IMG/VR virus record: IMGVR_UViG_3300045440_000173
Coordinates: 1-38,291 of that record
Length of the DNA: 38,291 nt
Source: a virus
Reading direction: 5' to 3' (one strand)
Under the pieces are notes generated by a model. That model made no database searches, was not told the DNA's origin, and was given only the letters and a program-made list of their open reading frames with translations. The first letter of the stretch is position 1. Each line of letters starts with the position of its first letter. Of this stretch, positions 15,962-38,291 are shown piece after piece. Position numbers and translations under genes: made by a program.

Positions 15962-17965
15962 CTACTGTGTAAACACTGACTCGCCGGTTCCGCCCGCGCC
16001 GCGCCGTTGCGACATGGGGACGTAGGCGGGCAGGCAGTGAGCGGGGCGAGGGATGGGTGCGCGCTCAACGATGATGTTGCCCACGATGCGCTCGGGCGAC
16101 TCGGCGGCGGGCTCAGCTGTAAAGGATTCCTTGACGACTGGATCCGGCTTGGGGATCGCCGCCATTTCCGCAAGGATGCCCACCGTGTCGAACGTCAAGC
16201 GGCGGTGAGCGGCGAGCGCATAAACGCGAATGTCGAGCGGCTCGTTGCGCCGGTTGCCCGCCTCGTAAATGTAATACGGCCTCCCGTGGCTGTACCGCGT
16301 CATGCGCTTCTCGCTCGTGAGCTGGTGGTAAAAGCGCGTGTCGTAGCCGTGGCCTTTGGGGAAGTGCATCGAACCAGGCCCAGGCACCGGCAACATGATG
16401 CGCGAATAAATCACCGTTTTTGCTGCAGTCACGCCTACCATCCACTGATGGACCTTGCGCTTGTTGTTGATCGAGGGCTTGCGTTGCATGATCGGGATCT
16501 GTTTGCCGATGGTGTTTTGGCCCTTCGATGCGAAGATGCCACGCGACCGGCGCGGACCAGTGAACTGCAAGACGCGATCCTGCTTCGCCCCCGAGTCAAT
16601 GAACGTCGTCGCCGCGCCCATGGTCTTTCCGCTGGGGTGGGTGAAGGTTTTCGCAAGGAGCAAGTCCAGCTCTTCCCATACCTTGTCCGCCTGCGTGTCG
16701 CCGTGGATAACGTGATACCCGAGCCCCCACGTTTCCTCTCCCTCGCCGTAGCCGACGAACTCGCATTCGATGCGGTCGTCCTGAACGTCGGCACCCGCCG
16801 CGATGCGCAGCACGCCCAACGGAATCGACTCGTCGGGATTGTAATCCTCGGCGCGCGCCAACACCGACTTCTCGTCCAGCTTTTCAAACTCTTCTTCCGA
16901 CGGCTCGGCCAAAAAGGTGTTCATCCAAGGCTTCATGCGCTCAGGTCCGCCCGCCTTCGACTCCAAGAAATCAACAGCGAACTCGTGAAGCATGGAGGTG
17001 AACTGCGGCTTGTGCCCCATCAGCCGATAAAGTCCGCTAAGGTGGTAGCCGCGCCGCCCCTTGAACGGTTGCCGCGCCTGCCAATGCCCGCGAACGATTG
17101 CGCGCTGCCGGTCAAGGTCAGTCCACCGGCACCCGCACTCGCCCAAGTAGTAGGCCGTTTCCGGCATGGCCTTGCCCTCGGCGTCCTTATCCCAACGCAC
17201 GCCCGCCCATGTCAGCTCCTGCGCTTTGTTGCAATGAGGGCAGAGAGCGCGCCATGTCCTAAAATCGGAATCCTCAAGCAGCGCCCAAATCTTTGACCGG
17301 CCTTTGACCGTGGGCGTGGACATCTTAACTTTTACCGCGTTGGAGAAATTGGACGCGCGGCGATCCGCAAGCGCGCACGGGTCTCCTTCCTCACCCGCCG
17401 AGAATGGGTCGGAGTCGATTTCATCCTGGAGCACCACGCGGCACGACGCACGACGCAGGCCGCTCGGTGAGTTTGCGCCGGCAATGCGGATAAACCCACC
17501 GGGGAAGCTCTTTTGTAAAATCGTGTTGCCGCTATCACGCGACCGCGCGTCTTGGATGAGCGCAGCCAATACCGGCGTGTCTTGAATCATCGGGTCAAGT
17601 TTCTCTTTCGAGTACCCTTTCGATGCGTCAAGCGTCGGGTATTTTACCAAGATGGGCGAAGGATCGGCGTGGATCATATAACCGATCAAGTTATTCATCA
17701 GCTCGGTTTTCCCCACCTGCGAGGCGATGCAAAGGACCGTCTCCCGAACGTCCGGCGCGGTGAAGGATTCCATTATCTCGCGCTGGTACGGCACGCGGTC
17801 GCACCGATATTTACCCGGCTCCGACGATGCGCCACGCGAAAGGATGCGGTATTTTTCAGCCCATTCGGCAACGGTCATCTTCATCGGCCAACGCAGGAAC
17901 TTCCACGCCCGAACGAGCGCGGCCCTATCGTTGGCCCGGCAATACTTTTTGATGGCTTGGCTCAT
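15962..17965 (-). CDS. terminase large subunit, GpA family
   Basis: 667 aa packaging motor and nuclease. An N-terminal Trp-rich segment (MTVAEWAEKYRILS) precedes the ATPase: Walker A ASQVGKTE (81-88) with the GpA-type S-Q-x-G-K-T form and Walker B VVLQDEID (178-184). The nuclease half holds acidic residues in AAGADVQDDRIECEFVG and the stretch TTFIDSGAKQDRVLQF. The length fits lambda GpA (about 640). GpA-type motors usually cut at cos sites, so a cos sequence is expected upstream of TerS (18433-18880). The start overlaps the TerS stop by ATGA. Confidence 0.93.
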   Translation of the reverse strand: MSQAIKKYCRANDRAALVRAWKFLRWPMKMTVAEWAEKYRILSRGASSEPGKYRCDRVPYQREIMESFTAPDVRETVLCIASQVGKTELMNNLIGYMIHADPSPILVKYPTLDASKGYSKEKLDPMIQDTPVLAALIQDARSRDSGNTILQKSFPGGFIRIAGANSPSGLRRASCRVVLQDEIDSDPFSAGEEGDPCALADRRASNFSNAVKVKMSTPTVKGRSKIWALLEDSDFRTWRALCPHCNKAQELTWAGVRWDKDAEGKAMPETAYYLGECGCRWTDLDRQRAIVRGHWQARQPFKGRRGYHLSGLYRLMGHKPQFTSMLHEFAVDFLESKAGGPERMKPWMNTFLAEPSEEEFEKLDEKSVLARAEDYNPDESIPLGVLRIAAGADVQDDRIECEFVGYGEGEETWGLGYHVIHGDTQADKVWEELDLLLAKTFTHPSGKTMGAATTFIDSGAKQDRVLQFTGPRRSRGIFASKGQNTIGKQIPIMQRKPSINNKRKVHQWMVGVTAAKTVIYSRIMLPVPGPGSMHFPKGHGYDTRFYHQLTSEKRMTRYSHGRPYYIYEAGNRRNEPLDIRVYALAAHRRLTFDTVGILAEMAAIPKPDPVVKESFTAEPAAESPERIVGNIIVERAPIPRPAHCLPAYVPMSQRRGAGGTGESVFTQ

Positions 17966-18920: not shown

Positions 18921-18969
18921 CGGTATCGTAAACCGCAGGTCGTCGGTTCAATCCCGACCATCGGCTCCA
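18921..18969 (+). other. attP core: 3' half of a tRNA-Thr(CGT) gene
   Basis: Readable as tRNA from the anticodon loop onward: loop T-CGT-AA with anticodon CGT at 18927-18929, variable loop AGGTC, T arm GTCGG-TTCAATC-CCGAC, acceptor strand CATCGGC, discriminator T and encoded CCA. The upstream 5' half is absent: the acceptor partner GCCGATG is not there, and the anticodon stem has a T-C mismatch on its phage side. The phage therefore carries the 3' end needed to restore the host tRNA-Thr gene after integration. The identity block should begin near the anticodon loop. Confidence 0.85.
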
Positions 18970-19070
18970 GTGTATGAGAGGAGAAAACAGGGGTTTGTGA
19001 CCCAACTTGAATTCCGGGCAATTTGGCGGGAATTCACCGATTTTCGCCGGTTTTCTTGATTCTCGCCAAG

Positions 19071-19082
19071 ATTAACGCCAAC
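19071..19082. repeat. putative integrase arm-type site, right
   Basis: Second copy of ATTAACGCCAAC, 9 bases before the integrase ATG. With the copy at 18882 it brackets the attP core. Because it lies in the integrase leader, binding here could also repress the integrase promoter; that is inference. Confidence 0.55.
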
Positions 19083-19090
19083 TGTACGGC

Positions 19091-20302
19091 ATGGCCCGAC
19101 ACCGCGAGAATCTGCTCCGCATCATCCCGCTCGCCGGCGGTTCATGGCTCCTCGATGGATTCCATCTGGGCAAGCGTATCAGGAAACAGGGGCGCGACGT
19201 CAACGCGCTGCGCGTGAAGATGCAGGAAATGCAGGCCGTGCTCACGCAGGCCAGCGAAAACATAATAGCCCCGCGCATGACCAGGCTAACGGAGGCACAG
19301 CTCCGAGATGCCGAGGCCGCTGTGGAGCGGGCAGGGGGGCGCTCGCTCTTGGCCTGCGTGATCACGTCGGAGCGAGTCATGGTAACGGGCGAAAAGGTGG
19401 CGCTGGTAGACGCGCTTTCGGCGTGGGTGGCGCACCAAGAGAAAAGGGGCAGGCATGAGCGAACAATCGAGGGCAACATTTCAAGGGCGCGGGCATTTAT
19501 TGCCGAGATGGCGAGAATTGGCGTTAATTCGGTTGATGAGGTGAGGCCAGAGCATTTCGAGGCGTGGGTTTATCGCGGGGAGCGCGCCGATTTCACGCGC
19601 AAAGGGGATGCGTCGGTGCTGCAAGCCTGGGCGAATTTCTGGCTTAAGCCGAAGCGGTGGGTCAAGGAAAGCCCGTTCGAGGTTGATATGCGTGACCTGA
19701 AGTCGAGAGCCCGCGCGATTGAATTGCCGCGCATTTTAACGCCAGCCCAAGCCCACGGCCTGCTTGCGGCCGCAAAACGCGTCAAATCGCAAGGAATGGC
19801 CGCCTACGTGGCCCTAGCGTGTTGGTGCTTCATGCGCCACGCCGAGGCGCTGCGGGTAACTCCGGCCGACATGAAGTTGGAGCGCAAGGCGCCCGTGGTT
19901 GAGGTCAGGCCGCGAAAGCGGGGTACGGTGAGCTATCGCCCCGTCACGGTTCCGGCCTGCGTGCTGCCAATCCTGGTCGCGGCCAAGGCGAGGGCGCTTG
20001 CGACGGGTGAGCCGGTAGCAACGTGCAAGCGGGTGAGTTGGGATGGCGTGAGGGAGGCGGCGGGGCTGGCCAAGCGCGGGCCGGTCAAAAACAAGAAGCG
20101 GGCAATCGAGTCGGAAATTTGGCAGGAGAACATTTTGAGGCATACCGGCCTGAGCTACCATTTCCAACGCGGGCAGGACATTGCCGACACGACGCGGCAG
20201 GCGGGCAACTCATCGGCCACGGCATTTGCGCATTACCTGGTCTTGCCCGAAGAAGGGGCGGCCGATGAGTTCTTTGAGGTCATGCCGCCGAATCTGATTT
20301 AG
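19091..20302 (+). CDS. site-specific tyrosine recombinase (phage integrase)
   Basis: 403 aa. Residues about 100-190 form the SAM-like core-binding domain. The catalytic domain starts near 212 (LPRILTPAQAHGLL). Visible active-site elements are Arg249 with Glu252 (FMRHAEALR), Arg350-His351 (NILRHTG) and the nucleophile Tyr382 (AFAHYLV). Two canonical histidines are replaced: the first box-II residue is Asn347 and the LGH-type histidine is Asn373 (AGNSS). This variant pattern is seen in some Verrucomicrobiota/Lentisphaerota integrases. It acts on the adjacent tRNA attP. It lacks the extra insertion of IntI-type integron integrases, so it is not the enzyme for the cassette array. Confidence 0.9.
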   Translation: MARHRENLLRIIPLAGGSWLLDGFHLGKRIRKQGRDVNALRVKMQEMQAVLTQASENIIAPRMTRLTEAQLRDAEAAVERAGGRSLLACVITSERVMVTGEKVALVDALSAWVAHQEKRGRHERTIEGNISRARAFIAEMARIGVNSVDEVRPEHFEAWVYRGERADFTRKGDASVLQAWANFWLKPKRWVKESPFEVDMRDLKSRARAIELPRILTPAQAHGLLAAAKRVKSQGMAAYVALACWCFMRHAEALRVTPADMKLERKAPVVEVRPRKRGTVSYRPVTVPACVLPILVAAKARALATGEPVATCKRVSWDGVREAAGLAKRGPVKNKKRAIESEIWQENILRHTGLSYHFQRGQDIADTTRQAGNSSATAFAHYLVLPEEGAADEFFEVMPPNLI

Positions 20303-22665: not shown

Positions 22666-23865
22666 ATGTCACTCAATATCACCAAAGGCAAACGCCAGAC
22701 CCCAATCCGGGGAATCATCATGGGCACGTCCGGCATCGGCAAATCCACCTTTGCCGCAGGCCTCCCCAAGCCGCTGTTCCTCGACACTGAGGAAAGCACC
22801 AACGAGCTCGACGTCGACCGCATCACCATCACCGACTGGCAGCACCTTCTCGACACGATCCGCCAGGTCGCCAACTCCACGCTCACCTACCAGACCATTG
22901 TCATCGACACGGCCGACTGGGCCGAGCGGATGCTCATTGAGAACCTGCTCAAGAAGAACGGCAAGAAGTCGATTGAAGACTACAGCTTTGGCAAGGGTTA
23001 CACCATCGCCGCCGAGGAGTTCGGCCGCTTCCTGACTGCAACCGACGCCCTCACCGCCAAAGGGATGCACGTTGTTTTCATCGCTCACACGAAGGTCGTC
23101 CGCGTCTCACCTCCCGACCAAACTGACGGCTACGACCGCTACGAACTGAAGATGAGCAAGCAATCTGCCCCGCTCCTCAAGGAGTGGAGTGACCTGCTTA
23201 TTTTTGCCCACAACCAAGTCACCATCGTTGAGGGCACCGACGGCCGCGTGAAAGCCCAAGGCGGCAAAGAGCGCGTCATGCACACGACCAGCTCGGCCGC
23301 ATGGGACGCCAAGAATCGTTTCGGACTGCCCGAGGTGATGCCCTTCGACGCCTCGCTTCTGCTCCCCATGTTCTCGGGGCGCATCAAGCCGGTTGCCGAG
23401 TCCGCCCCGGTTGTGGTTCCGCCTGCTGCCGAAGAACAGCCTGAGCCCGCCGCCCCTGCCAACATCACCGCAGAGCAGTGCGAACGGTTGGAGCAGTACG
23501 TTGCTGTACCCATCTGCGCGCCGATCATCAGCAGGGCGCTCGCTCATTACAACTGCATGGAGCGATCCGACCTGACGGAAGAACAGGCTGCCAAGATCAT
23601 CTCCCGCTGCCAGGAGGAAATGAACAAGGAGCCCGCCAAGCCCGCCCCGGCCGCCCCAGCTAGTGACGGCCCGCGCGCCCTGTTCCTGCCCGCCACCCTC
23701 GCTTGGCTCACCGCCAACGAAGCGGCCGTGAACACGTTCCTCATCGCCAAGAACTGGGCCAAGTCCGGCCAGACCTTCCGCGACCTGAGCCCCGACCGTG
23801 CCGAGAGCATCATCACCAAAGCCGACGCCTTCGCCAAGGCCGCCAGCATCCCGACCCTTAACTAA
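22666..23865 (+). CDS. RecA-like ATPase, Sak4-type single-strand annealing recombinase
   Basis: 399 aa. The RecA-core ATPase occupies residues about 1-230: Walker A GTSGIGKST (20-28), then LFLDTEESTNEL, then Walker B TIVIDTADW (77-85). HVVFIAHTKVVRV with a conserved sensor-type histidine and SAPLLKEWSDLLIFAHNQ complete the phage AAA_24/Sak4 pattern. The C-terminal half is a Pro/Ala linker and about 120 residues of helical sequence (ITAEQCERLEQYVA; ALFLPATLAWLTANEAA) unlike the minimal Sak4. Sak4 proteins anneal ssDNA with a partner SSB, here probably the protein at 24601-25101. Operon partners include a nuclease and a helicase. Confidence 0.78.
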   Translation: MSLNITKGKRQTPIRGIIMGTSGIGKSTFAAGLPKPLFLDTEESTNELDVDRITITDWQHLLDTIRQVANSTLTYQTIVIDTADWAERMLIENLLKKNGKKSIEDYSFGKGYTIAAEEFGRFLTATDALTAKGMHVVFIAHTKVVRVSPPDQTDGYDRYELKMSKQSAPLLKEWSDLLIFAHNQVTIVEGTDGRVKAQGGKERVMHTTSSAAWDAKNRFGLPEVMPFDASLLLPMFSGRIKPVAESAPVVVPPAAEEQPEPAAPANITAEQCERLEQYVAVPICAPIISRALAHYNCMERSDLTEEQAAKIISRCQEEMNKEPAKPAPAAPASDGPRALFLPATLAWLTANEAAVNTFLIAKNWAKSGQTFRDLSPDRAESIITKADAFAKAASIPTLN

Positions 23866-30316: not shown

Positions 30317-30690
30317 CCGAGCCCACCAAATTCACGACGATCACCGGCAGCGACTGGCGAGTGAGCTTACAGGCCGCCCGCGCCCGCCGAACCCTCAACA
30401 AAGAAAACTTCAGAAACCAAATCCTAGACACCATGAAACCACGCAATCCCAACGGACGCCCGCCACTGCGGGACTATTCCTTAATCAAAGCCCGAGCGGT
30501 TTCCCTCCTGCGCGAGGGGTACTCGGTCAACGACATCCAGCGCGCCGCATCGGTGCCGCTTCACATCCTTGTTCAGTGGCGCAACGAGGCCGGAATCAAG
30601 CCCCGACCATCGGGCTTTAACTCCAACCGTGGCCGGCTTCCGTACCTGGAGCAATTTGCCGTTGAGGCATGGAAGGAGGGCGGCAAATGA
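30313..30690 (+). CDS. basic HTH protein, 125 aa
   Basis: The start is the overlapping ATG at 30313. N-terminal helical and basic part (RVSLQAARARRTLNKENF), then residues about 60-95 form an HTH (VSLLREGYSVNDIQRAASVP, then LHILVQWRNEAGI). Rich in Arg and Pro, probably DNA-binding. Last clear phage-type gene before the cassette region; it overlaps the next gene by ATGA. Confidence 0.55.
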   Translation: MTEPTKFTTITGSDWRVSLQAARARRTLNKENFRNQILDTMKPRNPNGRPPLRDYSLIKARAVSLLREGYSVNDIQRAASVPLHILVQWRNEAGIKPRPSGFNSNRGRLPYLEQFAVEAWKEGGK

Positions 30691-31040
30691 TCAACATCGA
30701 CCGAATTGACGACACCGGGCTGTCGGCGGTGTTCGCCGTCGAGGTGGCTGGATATCTTCAGCACAACCAATCCGGTCCGAATGGCCGATGGGTTAACAAC
30801 GGCGTCGTCTGGATGTGCCCGAGCGTCTTGACCTTCGCAGCGTCCATGGACGCTGTGCTGCCGTATTTAGAGCGCACACTTTTCAGAATCGAGCGCCTGT
30901 GCCAGCCCGATGAATACTGCGTTTACATCGAGTTACCCGCTGGCACCTACGTCAAAGGCTGCGACGCGCGGCTTTCAAAGGCTGCGTGCATCGCGCTGAT
31001 CATGGCCGCGCGGGCTGATTCCGCATTGCCCAACGTTTAA
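30687..31040 (+). CDS. first cassette-type gene (117 aa), ends in attC
   Basis: 117 aa with no known family: NGVVWMCPSVLTFAASMDAV (hydrophobic) and ERTLFRIERLCQPDEYCVYI. The stop codon TAA (31038-31040) lies inside the attC at 31028, giving the C-terminus SALPNV, shared with unrelated genes downstream. GATTCCGCATT just before attC recurs before attC5, so the 3' end is cassette-like. The 5' end is fused to the phage operon by a 4-nt overlap, and no attI or left attC is seen. Either the gene is the first cassette or a phage gene that acquired an attC at its end. Confidence 0.6.
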   Translation: MINIDRIDDTGLSAVFAVEVAGYLQHNQSGPNGRWVNNGVVWMCPSVLTFAASMDAVLPYLERTLFRIERLCQPDEYCVYIELPAGTYVKGCDARLSKAACIALIMAARADSALPNV

Positions 31041-31116
31041 GCTCAGCGATGAGCTGACGCAACTAACAGAACCATTTGTGACATCGAAGCTCATTCGCTG
31101 TAGCGACTGGTTAGGC
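31028..31116 (+). repeat. attC1
   Basis: 89 bp. Left core GCCCAAC, right core GTTAGGC, the consensus inverse core RYYYAAC and core GTTRRRY. Inner arms CAGCG-ATGAGCT (left) pair with the right arm read backwards, CAGCGAATGAGCT, leaving one extra A, the typical extrahelical base that tells IntI which strand to use. The stop of the upstream gene lies inside. Confidence 0.85.
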
Positions 31117-31163
31117 TGTATGGTATTTCCGATGATCGGGTAACGTAAACGAACACTAAAACT

Positions 31164-31382
31164 ATGAATAAAAAATATAAATGGGTTGAGCTATCCGATC
31201 AGGGATTAATGGTTAAACCCAAAGAACTAGGCCCGTATTACGACAAGGAAGATTTCAATGGCCATTATGGACACTTTGACAGCGAGGCTGGCGCAATAGA
31301 ACACGCTGAAAAAGTAAGGAGGAATCACCCATATTCCGAGAATGAGTTGGTCTTGGTTACAGTGTATGTCTTCTCTGCCTAA
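31164..31382 (+). CDS. cassette gene 1, small acidic/aromatic protein, 72 aa
   Basis: Unknown. Tyr/His/Asp-rich (LGPYYDKEDFNGHYGHFDSE), with a basic C-terminal helix and a strand (ELVLVTVYVFSA). The start ATG comes after the cassette leader (AACGTAAACGAAC...AAACT). The stop TAA is inside attC2. Confidence 0.6.
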   Translation: MNKKYKWVELSDQGLMVKPKELGPYYDKEDFNGHYGHFDSEAGAIEHAEKVRRNHPYSENELVLVTVYVFSA

Positions 31383-31466
31383 CGATAAAGCTCAGCGATA
31401 GCCCACTGCAACTAGCCGAACAATTTGCGACATCTGCGGGCTATTCGCTGTAGCGACTGGTTAGGC
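31377..31466 (+). repeat. attC2
   Basis: 90 bp between GCCTAAC and GTTAGGC. Arms CAGCG-ATAGCCC and (right, reversed) CAGCGAATAGCCC pair with one extrahelical A. Closely related to attC6 (same AGCCCACTG and AGCCGAACAATT blocks). Belongs to the cassette to its left. Confidence 0.85.
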
Positions 31467-31508
31467 TCTGTAACGACTGCAAATTCCGATTAACTAAACG
31501 ATAACTTT

Positions 31509-31754
31509 ATGGATAAAACAAAAGCAGATATACTATACGAATCACTCGCCAACTTCACCGACGAGGAGGGCGCAATCGAGTGCGGAGCAAAAATGCGGGA
31601 CTTCGCCCGCGAGCTAGAGCGCGAGAACGCCAAACTGCTAGGGCTTCTAGGTGAAGTCTTTCAATGCATAGAATATGCGGAACGGTGCGGCGGACTGGAC
31701 TCGGTCACTGAAATCAAGGTACGCCGTGCTTTGGCTGCATTGCCCAACGTATAG
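31509..31754 (+). CDS. cassette gene 2, helical protein, 81 aa
   Basis: Mostly alpha-helical with a coiled-coil-like stretch (MRDFARELERENAKLLGLLG) and FQCIEYAERCGGLDS. Unknown function. The stop TAG is inside attC3, giving the ending ALAALPNV. Small helical proteins of this kind are frequent unknowns in integron arrays. Confidence 0.6.
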   Translation: MDKTKADILYESLANFTDEEGAIECGAKMRDFARELERENAKLLGLLGEVFQCIEYAERCGGLDSVTEIKVRRALAALPNV

Positions 31755-31832
31755 CTGAGCCAGATGCGCTCCTGTAACCAAATAAACAATCAGCGGGCCA
31801 AGGCGCATCTTGGCTCCAGCGACTGGTTGGGC
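31742..31832 (+). repeat. attC3
   Basis: 91 bp between GCCCAAC and GTTGGGC. Arms GCTGAGCCAGATGCGC and, read from the right end, GCTGGAGCCAAGATGCGC pair with two extrahelical bases. Identical over all 91 bases to attC4 at 32533. Confidence 0.88.
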
Positions 31833-31870
31833 TCGAATGCTTTTTAATTTCCGACAAACTCAAAATTACT

Positions 31871-32545
31871 ATGAACGATAAAACTAACGACTTCACCGAC
31901 TTCCCGAAAATGGCGCGACTCTCACGCGAGTGCATAATCACTGAGAAAATCGACGGCACAAACGCGCAAATCTATATCGCGCCGCTATCCGCAAACGAAC
32001 CCATACCCGAACACTCGCTTGGCGTCTTTGACTTTGGCGGTGCGCTGCACTATATGGCCGCCGGTTCCCGCACCCGCTGGATCACTCCGCAGGATGACAA
32101 CTTCGGCTTTGCTGGTTGGGTCGCTCGCAACTTCGACCAACTTAAAACGCTCGGCGCTGGGCGTCACTTTGGCGAATGGTGGGGCGCTGGCATTCAGCGG
32201 AAATACAACATGGAAGAAAAGCGGTTCAGCCTATTCAACGTGTCGCGCTGGTGCCTACACGGTTCGACGCCTAATAAAATCGACAATGCCGATCCACGGA
32301 TCGTGAAACTGCAAGACGTGCTACCTCCATGCGTCGGACTGGTTCCGGTCTTGTTTCGTGGTGAGTTCACGACGGGCGCTTGCGAGTCGGCACTCGACCA
32401 ACTGCGCAGCTTCGGGAGCTTCGCAAAAAGTGGATTCATGAAACCCGAGGGAATCGTCTGCTTCCACGTCGCCGCAAACGCTGGGTTCAAGAAAACACTG
32501 GAGCGTGACGAAGCTCCGAAGTCTTCCTACTTGCCCAACGTATAG
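31871..32545 (+). CDS. cassette gene 3, RNA ligase family protein, 224 aa
   Basis: Nucleotidyltransferase motifs are in order: motif I TEKIDGTN (nucleophile Lys26), an Arg-containing GSRTRW, motif III HFGEWWGAGIQRKY (99-112), motif IIIa FSLFNV, motif IV KPEGIV (191-196) and motif V FKKTL (206-210). Members join RNA ends using ATP and are used in RNA repair. In phages such enzymes undo host tRNA cleavage by anticodon nucleases. Here it is on a cassette with its own leader, and it ends in LPNV because the stop (TAG) is in attC4. Protein length is typical for small Rnl-like ligases. Confidence 0.8.
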   Translation: MNDKTNDFTDFPKMARLSRECIITEKIDGTNAQIYIAPLSANEPIPEHSLGVFDFGGALHYMAAGSRTRWITPQDDNFGFAGWVARNFDQLKTLGAGRHFGEWWGAGIQRKYNMEEKRFSLFNVSRWCLHGSTPNKIDNADPRIVKLQDVLPPCVGLVPVLFRGEFTTGACESALDQLRSFGSFAKSGFMKPEGIVCFHVAANAGFKKTLERDEAPKSSYLPNV

Positions 32546-32623
32546 CTGAGCCAGATGCGCTCCTGTAACCAAATAAACAATCAGCGGGCCAAGGCGCATC
32601 TTGGCTCCAGCGACTGGTTGGGC
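32533..32623 (+). repeat. attC4
   Basis: 91 bp, base-for-base identical to attC3. The two identical sites flank the RNA-ligase cassette. This suggests a recent acquisition, or repeated use of one attC type. Confidence 0.88.
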
Positions 32624-32701
32624 GGCTGGTGTATCCTTTCTGAAATAGCTAACAAATAAACATGACGCGGCAACGTGTCTAAAAAACTACGAAAAACAAA
32701 C

Positions 32702-32944
32702 ATGAGTGATACGCCAACACCAATACACGAAGGCTGGACTGCCCTAGCGCAATTCCGGCAAGGCAGCGGAGTGATGGGAATGAACGCCATAGACTACTGG
32801 CTTCAAAAGGACGGCAAAACGATCCGTAGGCATGCGTGGTCGCAGGGTGGAGAAGGCTGGCGGACTGTGGACAAGGTGCCAGAATCCGAGCCATCATATC
32901 GCTGCACGTTCCGCGCCTCCGATTCCGCATTGCCCAACGTTTAA
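32702..32944 (+). CDS. cassette gene 4, unknown protein, 80 aa
   Basis: Start taken at the ATG 32702; a GTG at 32675 would add nine basic residues. Just before it, 32662-32682 encodes a six-codon reading frame (MTRQRV, stop), possibly a leader peptide. The protein carries WTALAQFRQGSGVMGMNAID and aromatic strands; no family. The stop TAA is within attC5 (SALPNV ending). Confidence 0.55.
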   Translation: MSDTPTPIHEGWTALAQFRQGSGVMGMNAIDYWLQKDGKTIRRHAWSQGGEGWRTVDKVPESEPSYRCTFRASDSALPNV

Positions 32945-33025
32945 GCTCAGAGACGACCACCTCTCCCCGACTCTCGAACCATTTGAGTGACGAGCGTGGT
33001 CGTTCTCTGTAGCGCCTGGTTGGGC
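32932..33025 (+). repeat. attC5
   Basis: 94 bp between GCCCAAC and GTTGGGC. Arms CAGAG-ACGACCAC and CAGAGAACGACCAC (right arm reversed) pair with one extrahelical A. Shares the left end GCCCAACGTTTAAGCTCAG with attC1. Confidence 0.85.
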
Positions 33026-33070
33026 TGTATGGTTTTTCCGTCGATTGGGTAACGTAAACGAATAACTAAA

Positions 33071-33232
33071 ATGACCTGCGAAAAATGTGGGGGATATGTA
33101 GAATGGAAGGGGCCGATGATAAACCTAACGCACACCGAGTGCTTACGCTGTGGAGCTATAAACTGTCAGATTCCTGAGTCGTATGACGAAGACGATACGT
33201 TAGAAACAAATGGCGAATCCTTTGGAGACTAA
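33071..33232 (+). CDS. cassette gene 5a, zinc-ribbon mini-protein, 53 aa
   Basis: Two CxxC pairs (CEKC and CLRC) separated by 17 residues, with a fifth Cys close by (GAINCQI). The C-terminal 20 residues are strongly acidic. Likely binds one zinc ion and may act on nucleic acid or another protein. Followed after 3 nt by gene 5b, so the cassette carries two genes. Confidence 0.6.
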   Translation: MTCEKCGGYVEWKGPMINLTHTECLRCGAINCQIPESYDEDDTLETNGESFGD

Positions 33233-33235
33233 TAA

Positions 33236-33418
33236 ATGAAAATACATCGTAATAAACAAGAGGCACTCGCAGCCTTAAAAGAATACCGGGACACCGTATC
33301 TGCACTAGCAGAAAGGCTGGGAGTTCATGAGGAGTGCGAGGACTCATGCTGCGCTGTTTATGACAGCGTTAAGTTTTACGCAGATGACGGCAAAACTGTG
33401 TGCCGATATTCCGAATGA
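33236..33418 (+). CDS. cassette gene 5b, cysteine-containing mini-protein, 60 aa
   Basis: An N-terminal basic helix (KIHRNKQEALAALKEYRDTV) and ECEDSCCAVYDSVKFYADDG in the second half. Unknown. It stops 7 nt before attC6 rather than inside it. Together with 5a it makes a two-gene cassette, the format in which toxin-antitoxin pairs are carried by integrons, though neither partner resembles a named toxin. Confidence 0.55.
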   Translation: MKIHRNKQEALAALKEYRDTVSALAERLGVHEECEDSCCAVYDSVKFYADDGKTVCRYSE

Positions 33419-33425
33419 TCTTTCT

Positions 33426-33513
33426 GCCCAACGTTCAAGCTCAGCGATAGCCCACTGTGATAGCCGAACAATTAGCGGCGTTGCGGGCTATTCGCTGTAG
33501 CGCCTGGTTAGGC
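33426..33513 (+). repeat. attC6
   Basis: 88 bp between GCCCAAC and GTTAGGC. Arms CAGCG-ATAGCCC / CAGCGAATAGCCC with one extrahelical A, very close to attC2. Last complete site in the array. Confidence 0.85.
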
Positions 33514-33555: not shown

Positions 33556-33945
33556 ATGACTATTGAATTGGCTAGAAAACGATTAGAATACTGGGCGGTA
33601 AGGTTAAACCTACACACTCATGTGGAATATCTTGCCGCTGCTCAAAACTGCCCGGGCCTTAGAGCTGTGCTTATCCGGTTGGGACATAAAGTTCCAAGGG
33701 GATTCTCATTACCTAAAAGAAAGAACACTAAATATATCGCAGCATCCGATGACTGGCACCCATCTTTTCGTGGTGGGGTGGTAGCGATAACGTGGCATAA
33801 TGATGACAACCGAATATCTGTTTGGGGCGATGATGACTTTGGTATGGAGAAACTTAACACCACGCGAATGGAATACGATATGCTAATCTCTAACGCACCC
33901 ATCTCTCAACCTATGCTGCGTAAGATTGGTTTCTGCATTGCCTAA
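33556..33945 (+). CDS. cassette gene 6, unknown protein, 129 aa
   Basis: Basic and aromatic, with TIELARKRLEYWAVRLNLHT at the start and GGVVAITWHNDDNRISVWGD, a beta hairpin, in the middle. No family recognised. The stop lies in GCCTAAC at 33940, the left core of a seventh attC whose right half is missing. The gene keeps the cassette leader (GACGTAAACGAAAATAATAT) before its ATG. Confidence 0.6.
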   Translation: MTIELARKRLEYWAVRLNLHTHVEYLAAAQNCPGLRAVLIRLGHKVPRGFSLPKRKNTKYIAASDDWHPSFRGGVVAITWHNDDNRISVWGDDDFGMEKLNTTRMEYDMLISNAPISQPMLRKIGFCIA

Positions 33946-33946
33946 C
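33940..33946 (+). repeat. remnant of attC7 (left core only)
   Basis: GCCTAAC overlaps the stop of the last cassette gene just as in the other units. Within the next 140 bases there is no GTTRRRY and no complementary arm (nearest is CTTAGGC at 34027). So this attC was truncated, or the junction with phage DNA lies here. Confidence 0.5.
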
Positions 33947-34114
33947 CAGCACTAGTCTTAACTTCTTCCAGATAGGCGGACTCAACTCCTCCAAAACTGG
34001 AAAAAGGTCGGCATTCCACGGGCAATCTTAGGCAGGCTTAAAACCTGCAAATCCGTAAACAAGTGGACTTTTTGTTTATGGGTTCAAAACCCCATGCGCC
34101 TTGTAAAAATTCAT
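33947..34114. other. end of cassette array, non-coding
   Basis: No gene. Contains a small hairpin GCAGG-CTTAAAA-CCTGC (34034-34050) and, at about 34075-34092, an inverted repeat ATGGG...CCCAT around TTCAAAAC which looks superficially like a tRNA T-arm but has an 8-nt loop and no acceptor partner. It is the boundary between cassette DNA and the phage late operon. Confidence 0.5.
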
Positions 34115-34142
34115 GCCCCGCCGTAACAAGTGGGGCTTTTTA
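34115..34142 (+). terminator. intrinsic terminator between convergent operons
   Basis: GCCCC (34115-34119) pairs with GGGGC (34132-34136), followed by TTTTTATT. Well placed to end the plus-strand early/cassette transcript. The minus-strand operon also ends here, its final stop (34140-34142) inside the T-run, and the same stem may serve it, but without a good U-run. Confidence 0.7.
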
Positions 34143-34337
34143 TTGGCCCAGTCCGGCAGGCAGCGCAATCGGCCCGCACTTCTGGCAGGCGAGGGCAACG
34201 AGCTTGTGGGCGGAGTAGCCAGCTAAACCGGATTCTCGGCACGTTGGGCAGCGCACGAGCTGCGAAGGTTGCCATTCGATCAGCGCGTAGGCCATGAGGT
34301 CGGTGGGTGCTACGCTGTTGCGGTCGGGCAAGCTCAT
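34140..34337 (-). CDS. zinc-ribbon protein, last gene of late operon, 65 aa
   Basis: The start overlaps the preceding stop by ATGA. Two CxxC pairs (CPTC and CQKC) 19 residues apart (RCPTCRESGLAGYSAHKLVA, then LACQKCG) define a small zinc ribbon. No enzymatic part. Small zinc-ribbon proteins at the ends of phage operons are often of unknown role; a regulatory or host-takeover function is possible. Confidence 0.65.
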   Translation of the reverse strand: MSLPDRNSVAPTDLMAYALIEWQPSQLVRCPTCRESGLAGYSAHKLVALACQKCGPIALPAGLGQ

Positions 34338-35806: not shown

Positions 35807-37995
35807 TGGATGTATTCCCATTGGATCGTATGCTTGAGGGTCGCCGTGGTGCTGGAGTTGACCCAGAGGTTGCCCGTGGAGGTGAAGGGCGTGAGCAGGG
35901 TGATTTGATTGTCACCCGAAACGACGGCGGCAGAGGCGCGGTACTGTGCGCCCGCCGAGACGTTTCCAAGGGTGACGTTGGGCGTGCCGCTAGAGTTGAT
36001 GACCCAGCTGGAAATGCGGGCGTTCGTTGGGATGATAACCTGCGTGCCGCCAATCTGCTGATTGCCCGAGGTGGTGGTCGTGAAGCGGATCATGCCGCGC
36101 ATGGCGGGGTCGATGACCGAGACGCCCGTTGCAGGTAGGATCAAGTCGCAGTTGTTGCCTGACGTATCGCGCACCATGTACCCCGCGTTGCGCTGGCCGC
36201 TGTCCTGCTCGAAGAGGGTGCCGAGGGGGATGATTGAGAAACCGGAGACAACTAGTGTTCCAGTCCCAACCTGATTAAAAACTATCGGATAGTAAGTTCC
36301 CAATGCAACGGACGTAACCGTTAGAACGATAGAGTTTGCACCGTTTAACACTCCAGCCGCCGGGCCTTGATTGTTTTTATATACCTGCACCCCTGCACCT
36401 GTGATCGTTGCGTTAAACGTCAGTAGGAGCTTTTGCCCAATGTACGATGATGGAATATTACAGCTCTGCAAAAACTTATTTCCATTGGCAGAGGCAGTAA
36501 ACCCAGTGGCACTTGCGCCACTGAATGAATCGAAGTTAATGTTCGTGAATGCTGTAGTATTCAGCGCCGTCATACTCCCGCCGCGTTGCTCCGGCAGCGT
36601 GACCAGCCCGCGACCGATTAGGGCCGTGATTTCGGATTGGGTTAGGGCGTAGTTGAAGAAACAGCCATGTGATACTGAACCAGAGGAAAACGGCGCACCT
36701 CCATTCCTAGACATGAGCGAAACGCTATTCGTGTCATACGAATTAGCGTCGGTAGATGTACCCAAGCTGACCCCGTTTAAGTAGGCATAAGCAACCCCAG
36801 ACAACCGCGCATAAACCAAAATGGAAACAGATGTAAGCGTAACGGCAAAATTCCCCCCACTAATTACACCGTTTTTATTAGCCCCAAAAGCGGTTCCTGT
36901 GTATTGAATCCCTAACGATCCAAATGCACCGGATACTAAATCGCCGTTTATGGTGCCCGGATTAAGCATTAAAACTACAGTAAAATCCCCCGTCCCCACA
37001 GCCGGAATCCCGCCGTTGCCAATCACCGCCCACGCCGTGCCGTCGAACCGCAGGCCCTCGCGCTCGATAAGAGCCACTTTGCTGGCGATGTCGGCGGCGT
37101 CGGCGGCTGCGAGTGCAGCGGCTGCGGTCGTCTTCTCGCTGTCCAGCTCGTTAATCGCCGCCTGCACGGTCGTTGCGGCGATGTTGCCTGCGGGCGTGTT
37201 GGCAACAGATGCCGCTGTTAATGCCGATTTCTCCCAGAGCCCCGTTGTCGAGTTGTAGCGCAATAGGTCGCCATTCGTCGGATTCTGCGCGGATACGTCG
37301 TGGATCTCGTCCATCTCGTATCCGTTCTGGATTGCAACCTCAATCGTGCCGAGCGTCGGGTGCGAGCGGGTTACGATGCCCACGTAAACCAGGTGATTCG
37401 GGGCATACTGTTTCGTCGTGGTATATCCGCCCGCAACGGTTGGCGAAAGGTAGAGCTGTTGCCCCTCGGTCAAGGCTTGAGTGTTCAATCCGCTGACGAC
37501 GCCGCGAATGACGACAGACCCCGTTGCGTTGTTGGCGATGTCCGCTTGAACCAAGCCAATTGTTTGTGCGGATGTCGCGTCAATCGTGGCCTGGGCGCGT
37601 GAAATCAGCGGGTTGTTACCAGTGGCCCCTGAGATATATACCACCGTGCCAGCCGTCATCGTGGAACCGGACTGATTGCGAACGGTAACGATCAACGCAC
37701 GTGCAGACGCTACGCCAGCACCAAGCTCCTGTTGAACAAAGGCAGTTGACGCCGCCTGAGTGGTGGTCGTACCCGTCGCCGCTGTTGGCACAAGGGGGCC
37801 ACTCGAAAAGGTCTTTGTGCCTGCAACTGCTTGGTTGCCCGTAAGCAGCACGCAATCGGCTTTTGCCGTGGCGATTGCCGAGGTCGTCGGCGTTGACACG
37901 GGCAACGTCGAAAGCGCGGCGGATTGGCCGTCGTTTAGCTCGATGCGGTCGGTTGCAAGCGGGGTTGTCTTGAGCGTGAGGCCGTTGATTGTCAT
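35803..37995 (-). CDS. tail fibre with LamG-like receptor-binding domain
   Basis: 730 aa, complete allele. Residues about 1-80 carry the fibre motif TGNQAVAGTKTFSS. Residues about 90-240 are a Gly/Ala/Thr-rich beta region (STMTAGTVVYISGATGNNPL). A Leu/Ala helix near residues 275-300 is followed by a concanavalin/LamG-like domain (about 290-450: GDFTVVLMLNPG, YAYLNGVSLG, FFNYALTQSEITALIG). The rest is beta sandwich ending IQWEYIQ. Such proteins form the receptor-binding fibre; the LamG fold suggests sugar or glycan binding. It is the fibre whose N-terminus is repeated at 1-597 of the window. Confidence 0.82.
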   Translation of the reverse strand: MTINGLTLKTTPLATDRIELNDGQSAALSTLPVSTPTTSAIATAKADCVLLTGNQAVAGTKTFSSGPLVPTAATGTTTTQAASTAFVQQELGAGVASARALIVTVRNQSGSTMTAGTVVYISGATGNNPLISRAQATIDATSAQTIGLVQADIANNATGSVVIRGVVSGLNTQALTEGQQLYLSPTVAGGYTTTKQYAPNHLVYVGIVTRSHPTLGTIEVAIQNGYEMDEIHDVSAQNPTNGDLLRYNSTTGLWEKSALTAASVANTPAGNIAATTVQAAINELDSEKTTAAAALAAADAADIASKVALIEREGLRFDGTAWAVIGNGGIPAVGTGDFTVVLMLNPGTINGDLVSGAFGSLGIQYTGTAFGANKNGVISGGNFAVTLTSVSILVYARLSGVAYAYLNGVSLGTSTDANSYDTNSVSLMSRNGGAPFSSGSVSHGCFFNYALTQSEITALIGRGLVTLPEQRGGSMTALNTTAFTNINFDSFSGASATGFTASANGNKFLQSCNIPSSYIGQKLLLTFNATITGAGVQVYKNNQGPAAGVLNGANSIVLTVTSVALGTYYPIVFNQVGTGTLVVSGFSIIPLGTLFEQDSGQRNAGYMVRDTSGNNCDLILPATGVSVIDPAMRGMIRFTTTTSGNQQIGGTQVIIPTNARISSWVINSSGTPNVTLGNVSAGAQYRASAAVVSGDNQITLLTPFTSTGNLWVNSSTTATLKHTIQWEYIQ

Positions 37996-38156
37996 GGGAG
38001 GGTGCGGACTTCGCCGGTTGCGAGCGTGCGGAACGTGCCGTCAGGCAGTGTGCGGATTTTTGAAAGGGGAATGGCTGCCGTCGTCTTGAACTTGGCCGAT
38101 AGCCGAAGCCATTTAAGCACCGCGGTTATGGCCGTGCGATAGATGACGGCCTTCAT
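37992..38156 (-). CDS. small tail-region protein, 54-aa allele
   Basis: Same gene as 594-785 but nine residues shorter (TAIAAGLTR missing) and with Lys for Asn at position 2. The other differences are silent. Stop overlaps the fibre start (ATGA). Confidence 0.65.
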   Translation of the reverse strand: MKAVIYRTAITAVLKWLRLSAKFKTTAAIPLSKIRTLPDGTFRTLATGEVRTLP

Positions 38157-38159
38157 GGA

Positions 38160-38291
38160 TTAGAGCGCGACCGTCTTGAGTTGCCCGCCTTGCACGCGCA
38201 GGAGTTCGCCCGTGGAGAACAGGCATCGCAGCGTGTAGTGGTAAACCTGATTCACGGCGAGGAGCGCGGTCTTGGCGGCGTCGTGGTGGAT
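38160..38291 (-). CDS. baseplate accessory protein, C-terminal part (cut by window edge)
   Basis: Last 43 codons of the same gene as 789-1148 with one silent substitution. The frame runs off the right edge of the window. Confidence 0.7.
   Translation of the reverse strand: MHHDAAKTALLAVNQVYHYTLRCLFSTGELLRVQGGQLKTVAL

Follow-up and report, generated by a model that had tools for sequence, protein, structure and literature searches.

How a gene for an RNA ligase came to lie between two identical attC sites of a phage, and what an attC array does in such a genome, are the questions raised by this locus. The window, which is the whole of the IMG/VR virus record IMGVR_UViG_3300045440_000173 (38,291 bases; G000 in the comparisons below), is a near-complete temperate tailed phage. 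Its ends (1-920 and 37399-38291, in the tail gene region) overlap with 94% identity over 920 bases, so that the record seems nearly complete and circularly permuted; this suggests a permuted genome assembled from two strains, not a true gene duplication. The explanation that we consider probable from the sequence comparisons is that the array would serve the phage as a gene-swap site, with genes reversed relative to attC, an attC site copied onto its neighbor, and a ligase that would seal RNA.

The attC array and its place in the phage

A covariance model (R1) built from 32 attC sites of other phages, with the window excluded, matched the 38-kb window exactly six times, with E values from 2.4e-23 to 4.4e-19 (Table 1). 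In the stems, 97.5% of the cells were paired, a value that fell to 34 to 40% when the partner was slid by one column. Double-sided changes were present in 10 of the 20 stem pairs (92 cells, versus 31 in shuffles), and the covariation score was 0.384, against a shuffled mean of 0.123. Having two or more such sites, each with R''/R' boxes that pair and a stem that folds, the window resembles the integrase-less arrays called CALINs. No integron integrase (TIGR02249) was detected in the window or its relatives across the 16 records tested, the sole match being a weak fragment below the cut-off in the unrelated G004. Four ORFs, ending at attC1, attC3, attC4 (the ligase) and attC5, have the tail LPNV* in common, since the attC box TTGCCCAACGT supplies their last codons. 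In the alignment of all phage arrays (A4), the central loop of the attC sites carries a conserved motif near CGAACMATCAGCGG, which is missing from the host sites seen, many of them having long hairpins there.

Table 1. Features of the window, in order of position.
Feature	Positions	Strand	Remarks
Terminase large subunit, GpA-type	15962..17965	-	PHROG 15, E 7e-197; query for finding the phage's relatives
Tyrosine recombinase (phage integrase, not IntI)	19091..20302	+	PHROG 1, E 9.6e-14; no TIGR02249 match
Sak4-like ssDNA annealing protein	22666..23865	+	PHROG 124, E 2.3e-56
ORF ending LPNV inside attC1	30687..31040	+	either opens the array or is the last of the phage genes
attC array without integron integrase (CALIN)	31028..33513	+	end of rightward early genes
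attC1	31028..31116	+	R1, E 4.4e-19
Small ORF, attC1-attC2	31164..31382	+	
attC2	31377..31466	+	R1, E 8.6e-22
Small ORF, attC2-attC3, ends LPNV	31509..31754	+	
attC3	31742..31832	+	R1, E 5.7e-21; identical to attC4; polarity makes it the site predicted to move with the ligase gene
Inter-attC segment, 700 nt	31833..32532	+	98.9% over 700/700 nt with G001; both flanking attC sites differ
Small Rnl2-type RNA ligase, 224 aa, catalytic K26	31871..32545	+	PF09414, PHROG 548, AF2
attC4	32533..32623	+	R1, E 5.7e-21
Small ORF, attC4-attC5, ends LPNV	32675..32944	+	
attC5	32932..33025	+	R1, E 2.4e-23
Two small ORFs (53 and 60 aa), attC5-attC6	33071..33418	+	90% like G001
attC6	33426..33513	+	R1, E 3.2e-21
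ORF after attC6	33556..33945	+	last gene before the terminator
Terminator-like hairpin and T-run	34114..34143	.	sequence; start of the right junction conserved at the array site of related phages

The rightward early gene block has the array at its 3' end and stops at the terminator-like hairpin. A portal protein and a primase/helicase are also encoded in the window; a scan brought up no relatives of the primase. The Sak4-like protein is a candidate recombinase for swaps between attC arms. Directly upstream of the phage integrase, positions 18926-18970 correspond to a tRNA 3' end (T-arm and acceptor), also seen in G021, which is likely an attachment site within a tRNA gene. To the right of the array, positions 33931-34115 have counterparts at 72 to 79% identity in G017, G018, and G020, phages in which attC sites are all that is otherwise shared with the window. 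Two candidate elements at 33.95-34.14 kb were rejected: a tRNA-like one, for which ARAGORN gave nothing except one poor forced fold, and an sRNA, for which the Rfam isrJ match (E 0.69) was under the gathering score.

The phage group was defined by terminase relatives at 86 to 97% identity. An attC array adjoins the same junction, which lies to the right of the array, in all six records of the group that cover it (G000, G001, G002, G021, G022, and G023), the contig of G024 ending just to the left of the junction. The content of the array differs among the six, and within the group the ligase is found in G000, G001, and G002 only. The sequence-only reading had taken the ligase for a cassette, and the group does show a gene that comes and goes: the same site with other content, and a 99% identical ligase in another array.

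Shared array genes, host integrons, and polarity

The genes of the phage arrays are largely uncoupled from their attC sites. The attC sites on the left and right of the ligase are 75% and 70% alike between the window and G001, which is the background level, despite the near-identity of the segment between them. The same was observed for a gene pair of G021 and G022 (98.5%, with attC flanks at 78% and 77%) and for a methylase-like pair of G002 and G019 (94%, with the left attC at 69%), and the first half of the ORF between attC2 and attC3 is about 88 to 93% like array genes of G022 and G023 that carry other attC types. Each break point is at or close to a box, GCCYAAC 3' of the gene and GTTRGGC 5' of it. 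The unit duplicated in a bacterial Opitutus array comprises a gene and one attC, and both of its breaks are at the GCCYAAC box, as expected of IntI. Joint inheritance of gene and attC was not the rule in the phage arrays, the only coupled case being a 175-nt gene of G002 and G019 whose attC sites are 99% and 90% alike. Nor does the ligase always come with this attC, a check proposed in the sequence-only reading: it is flanked by other attC types in G001 and G002, and ligases without attC exist.

Array genes are also shared across unrelated phages. The 175-nt gene is 100% identical in G002 and G019, which share a second gene at 94% and, beyond the array, resemble each other only in 62 nt on its right side. 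At L003:9252-9869 lies a methyltransferase-like gene (no Pfam match) that is 94% identical to G019 19069-19715; both copies lie in arrays, and the two phages are otherwise unrelated. Bacterial sources were sought for two phage array genes, and the matches were all distant.

The attC 3'-end pattern was searched in 257 Gb of bacterial and archaeal genomes and found in 24 stretches, of which 18 carry a Verrucomicrobiota title, in most cases Opitutae or Opitutaceae. R1 also finds attC arrays in Verrucomicrobiota MAGs (best E 8e-17). IntI scored over the curated cut-off in 8 of 15 such genomes, and in G037 and G044 the attC lies on the same contig as IntI, about 1 kb away. By sequence, the attC family of the phages is that of the chromosomal integrons of Opitutae and other Verrucomicrobiota, and the hosts are probably Verrucomicrobia-type, as judged from the attC type rather than from isolates. 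The phage sites share the stem family of the sedentary chromosomal integrons of Opitutae, whose hosts have IntI. They differ from them in the conserved loop, in their mostly reversed genes, and in having no IntI, whereas many host Opitutae sites have long central hairpins and the host genes lie on the attC top strand.

The polarity of the genes was compared in nine phage arrays and about 10 bacterial loci, with attC oriented as in the window and a strict rule that counts clear ORFs. The ratio of plus to minus ORFs was 15:3 in phages versus 2:25 in bacteria (Fisher's test, P = 2.6e-7), and when all calls were counted, 30 of the 35 bacterial cassette ORFs were on the minus strand. Under looser rules the phage ORFs were plus-biased only 24:18 or 22:13; the coding strand is uncertain for many array ORFs because they are short. 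The clear ORFs of the window are all plus, i.e., 3:0 against the attC top strand. In known attC sites, the folded bottom strand has its extra bases on the 3' arm (PMC3053210), and the extra stem bases are on the 3' arm of the window's coding strand at all five scorable sites and at 46 of 55 in other phages. How IntI and attC are placed relative to each other in G037 and G044 leads to the same strand reading, and visual inspection shows this arrangement also for ligases with short attC sites. ORF strand counts, the extra-base arm, and IntI geometry therefore place the ligase on the predicted attC bottom strand. These comparisons assign phage array genes mostly to the bottom strand of attC and host cassettes to the top strand; the reading of phage genes along the top strand was dropped after comparison with bacterial arrays. 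Cutting by IntI at this locus would mobilize attC3 with the ligase (31748-32538), not the ligase with attC4.

Integrase-less attC clusters in temperate and virulent phages are described by Qi et al. 2023 (PMC9892861), where it is also stated that phage CALIN genes may counter host defence and that IntI1 recombined 5 of the 6 phage attC sites tested. The main text of that paper includes no ligase, Verrucomicrobia, or IMG data and, in the sections available, describes no reversed polarity, gene/attC decoupling, or conserved array junction. That phages carry CALINs and that IntI1 can recombine phage attC is therefore already known and, relative to those sections, polarity and decoupling are the new parts. 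In contrast to those CALINs, the array here has kept to one junction throughout a phage group, and array genes recur in unrelated phages.

In the gene-swap explanation, a host integrase acting in trans, a phage annealing recombinase acting in the conserved attC arms, or both would replace the genes between sites, and phage-type genes would be retained in the direction of phage transcription, and so reversed relative to attC. More tentatively, phages of Opitutae-type bacteria may have made host attC arrays into a dedicated gene-swap locus of reversed polarity, whose bottom-strand genes would be read with the phage operon and whose segments would move between unrelated phages without their sites, through host integrase in trans, phage annealing recombinases using the attC arms as linkers, or both, the ligase having entered at least twice. 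The main alternative, which we regard as unlikely, is ordinary capture of a piece of host chromosomal integron that is decaying in the phage, gene direction and attC mixing being noise. The truncated attC after the G001 ligase does show decay, credible genes in the canonical direction do occur in some phage arrays, and phage CALINs were known before (PMC9892861), but the array is at the same junction in all six covering records, its stems are maintained by covariation, phage gene families occupy the slots, the strand bias is opposite to that of hosts (P = 3e-7), and the ligase is absent from the 373 Opitutales genomes searched. Gene capture by integrons is familiar from bacteria, and reports of phage CALINs have been scattered until now. 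A phage group with an attC array maintained at one junction, genes in common with unrelated phages and gene direction reversed relative to attC would make attC arrays part of phage gene exchange, and the site would be one where phage genes and host cassettes meet. The decoupling of gene and attC is directly testable and bears on how cassettes form.

The RNA ligase

The ligase ORF carries K26 in KIDG, followed by FGEWWG, PEGI, and FKKT, and these key residues show no or almost no variation among 53 phage homologues, a comparison that bears out the RNA ligase motifs (Lys26 in KIDG, then III to V) recognized in the sequence-only reading. The profiles matched were PF09414 (E 1.8e-10) and PHROG 548 (E 1.7e-26). 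Structure prediction against the Rnl families, suggested in the same reading, gave an Rnl2-type nucleotidyltransferase fold: the AlphaFold2 model (pLDDT 90.8) had T4 RNA ligase 2 and Naegleria RNA ligase as its best solved fold matches, the one to T4 Rnl2 with an E value of 4e-5, a probability of 1.00, and a TM of only 0.45. A phmmer search of PDB with the ligase alone gave chance matches only, so that profile and fold searches were needed; the profile search reached T4 Rnl2 at an E value of 3e-7. The likeness to the T4 Rnl2 family consists of the nucleotidyltransferase fold, the KxDG lysine, and a motif III of the FGExxGxGIQ type. T4 Rnl2 has a C-terminal domain, whereas ligases of the window type have only about 200 to 224 aa without it, and the ligase of the window, like the homologues seen, stops after motif V. 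As a member of a phage family, the ligase represents a minimal Rnl2-type nucleotidyltransferase, and it probably seals RNA breaks or nicks.

Relatives of the ligase were found in at least 80 IMG/VR loci and at least 82 records of isolated phages, where the neighbors are replication, recombination, or methylase genes. The same query that gives 85 to 99% identity in phage records had no match in 373 Opitutales genomes. The attC sites are real ones of an integron family; the proposal that the cassette was picked up from an integron is doubtful for the gene itself, which belongs to a widespread phage family. In the ligase tree, the group with long attC sites (window, L002, and L003) is apart from the group with short ones (L004, L006, and L009), and ligases without attC branch between them, the deeper forks being weak. 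The existence of two separate attC-flanked groups implies either two or more arrivals of the ligase between attC sites or a single one followed by several losses. The ligases of the second group (L004, L006, L009, and L011, in other phages) adjoin attC sites of 56 to 63 nt, which are class-1-like, and that of L011 is also preceded by an attC-like hairpin.

A counter-defence role of the ligase cassette is unproven. Phage tRNA repair works against PrrC (PMC2610378), and the RNA ligase fold and motifs would suit a cassette that mends tRNAs cut by host anticodon nucleases, as T4 Pnkp and Rnl1 do. This reading is nevertheless improbable, since the nearest solved relative is Rnl2 and not Rnl1, no end-healing kinase partner was present among the window ORFs scanned, and no polynucleotide kinase is annotated within 5 to 6 kb of the ligase in RHph_Y1_10 and CcrBL9. 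Moreover, the Arthrobacter phage Seahorse has the small ligase together with a separate kinase/RNA-ligase pair, so the small ligase probably does another job. A role in tRNA repair is thus possible and not favored.

The identical attC3 and attC4 pair

The identity of attC3 and attC4 reported in the sequence-only reading was confirmed at 91 of 91 positions, and it extends 2 bases upstream and 0 downstream; the four remaining sites (attC1, attC2, attC5, and attC6) differ. IntI insertion of a cassette cuts one box, leaves the target attC unchanged, and does not copy the incoming site, and therefore an identical pair needs a separate duplication or conversion of a site. A recent insertion of the ligase gene as a cassette, to which the singularity of the pair could point, is thus very unlikely to be the source of the identity, all the more so because the same gene lies between other attC types in G001 and G002. 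Of the two origins suggested in that reading, insertion or duplication, the former is disfavored, and we favor a recently copied site: one attC may have been copied onto its neighbor by homologous recombination or conversion. The identity of attC3 and attC4 has no equal among the 232 within-array attC pairs drawn from 11 phage records, the next best pair being 91.4% identical and the median 68.5%.
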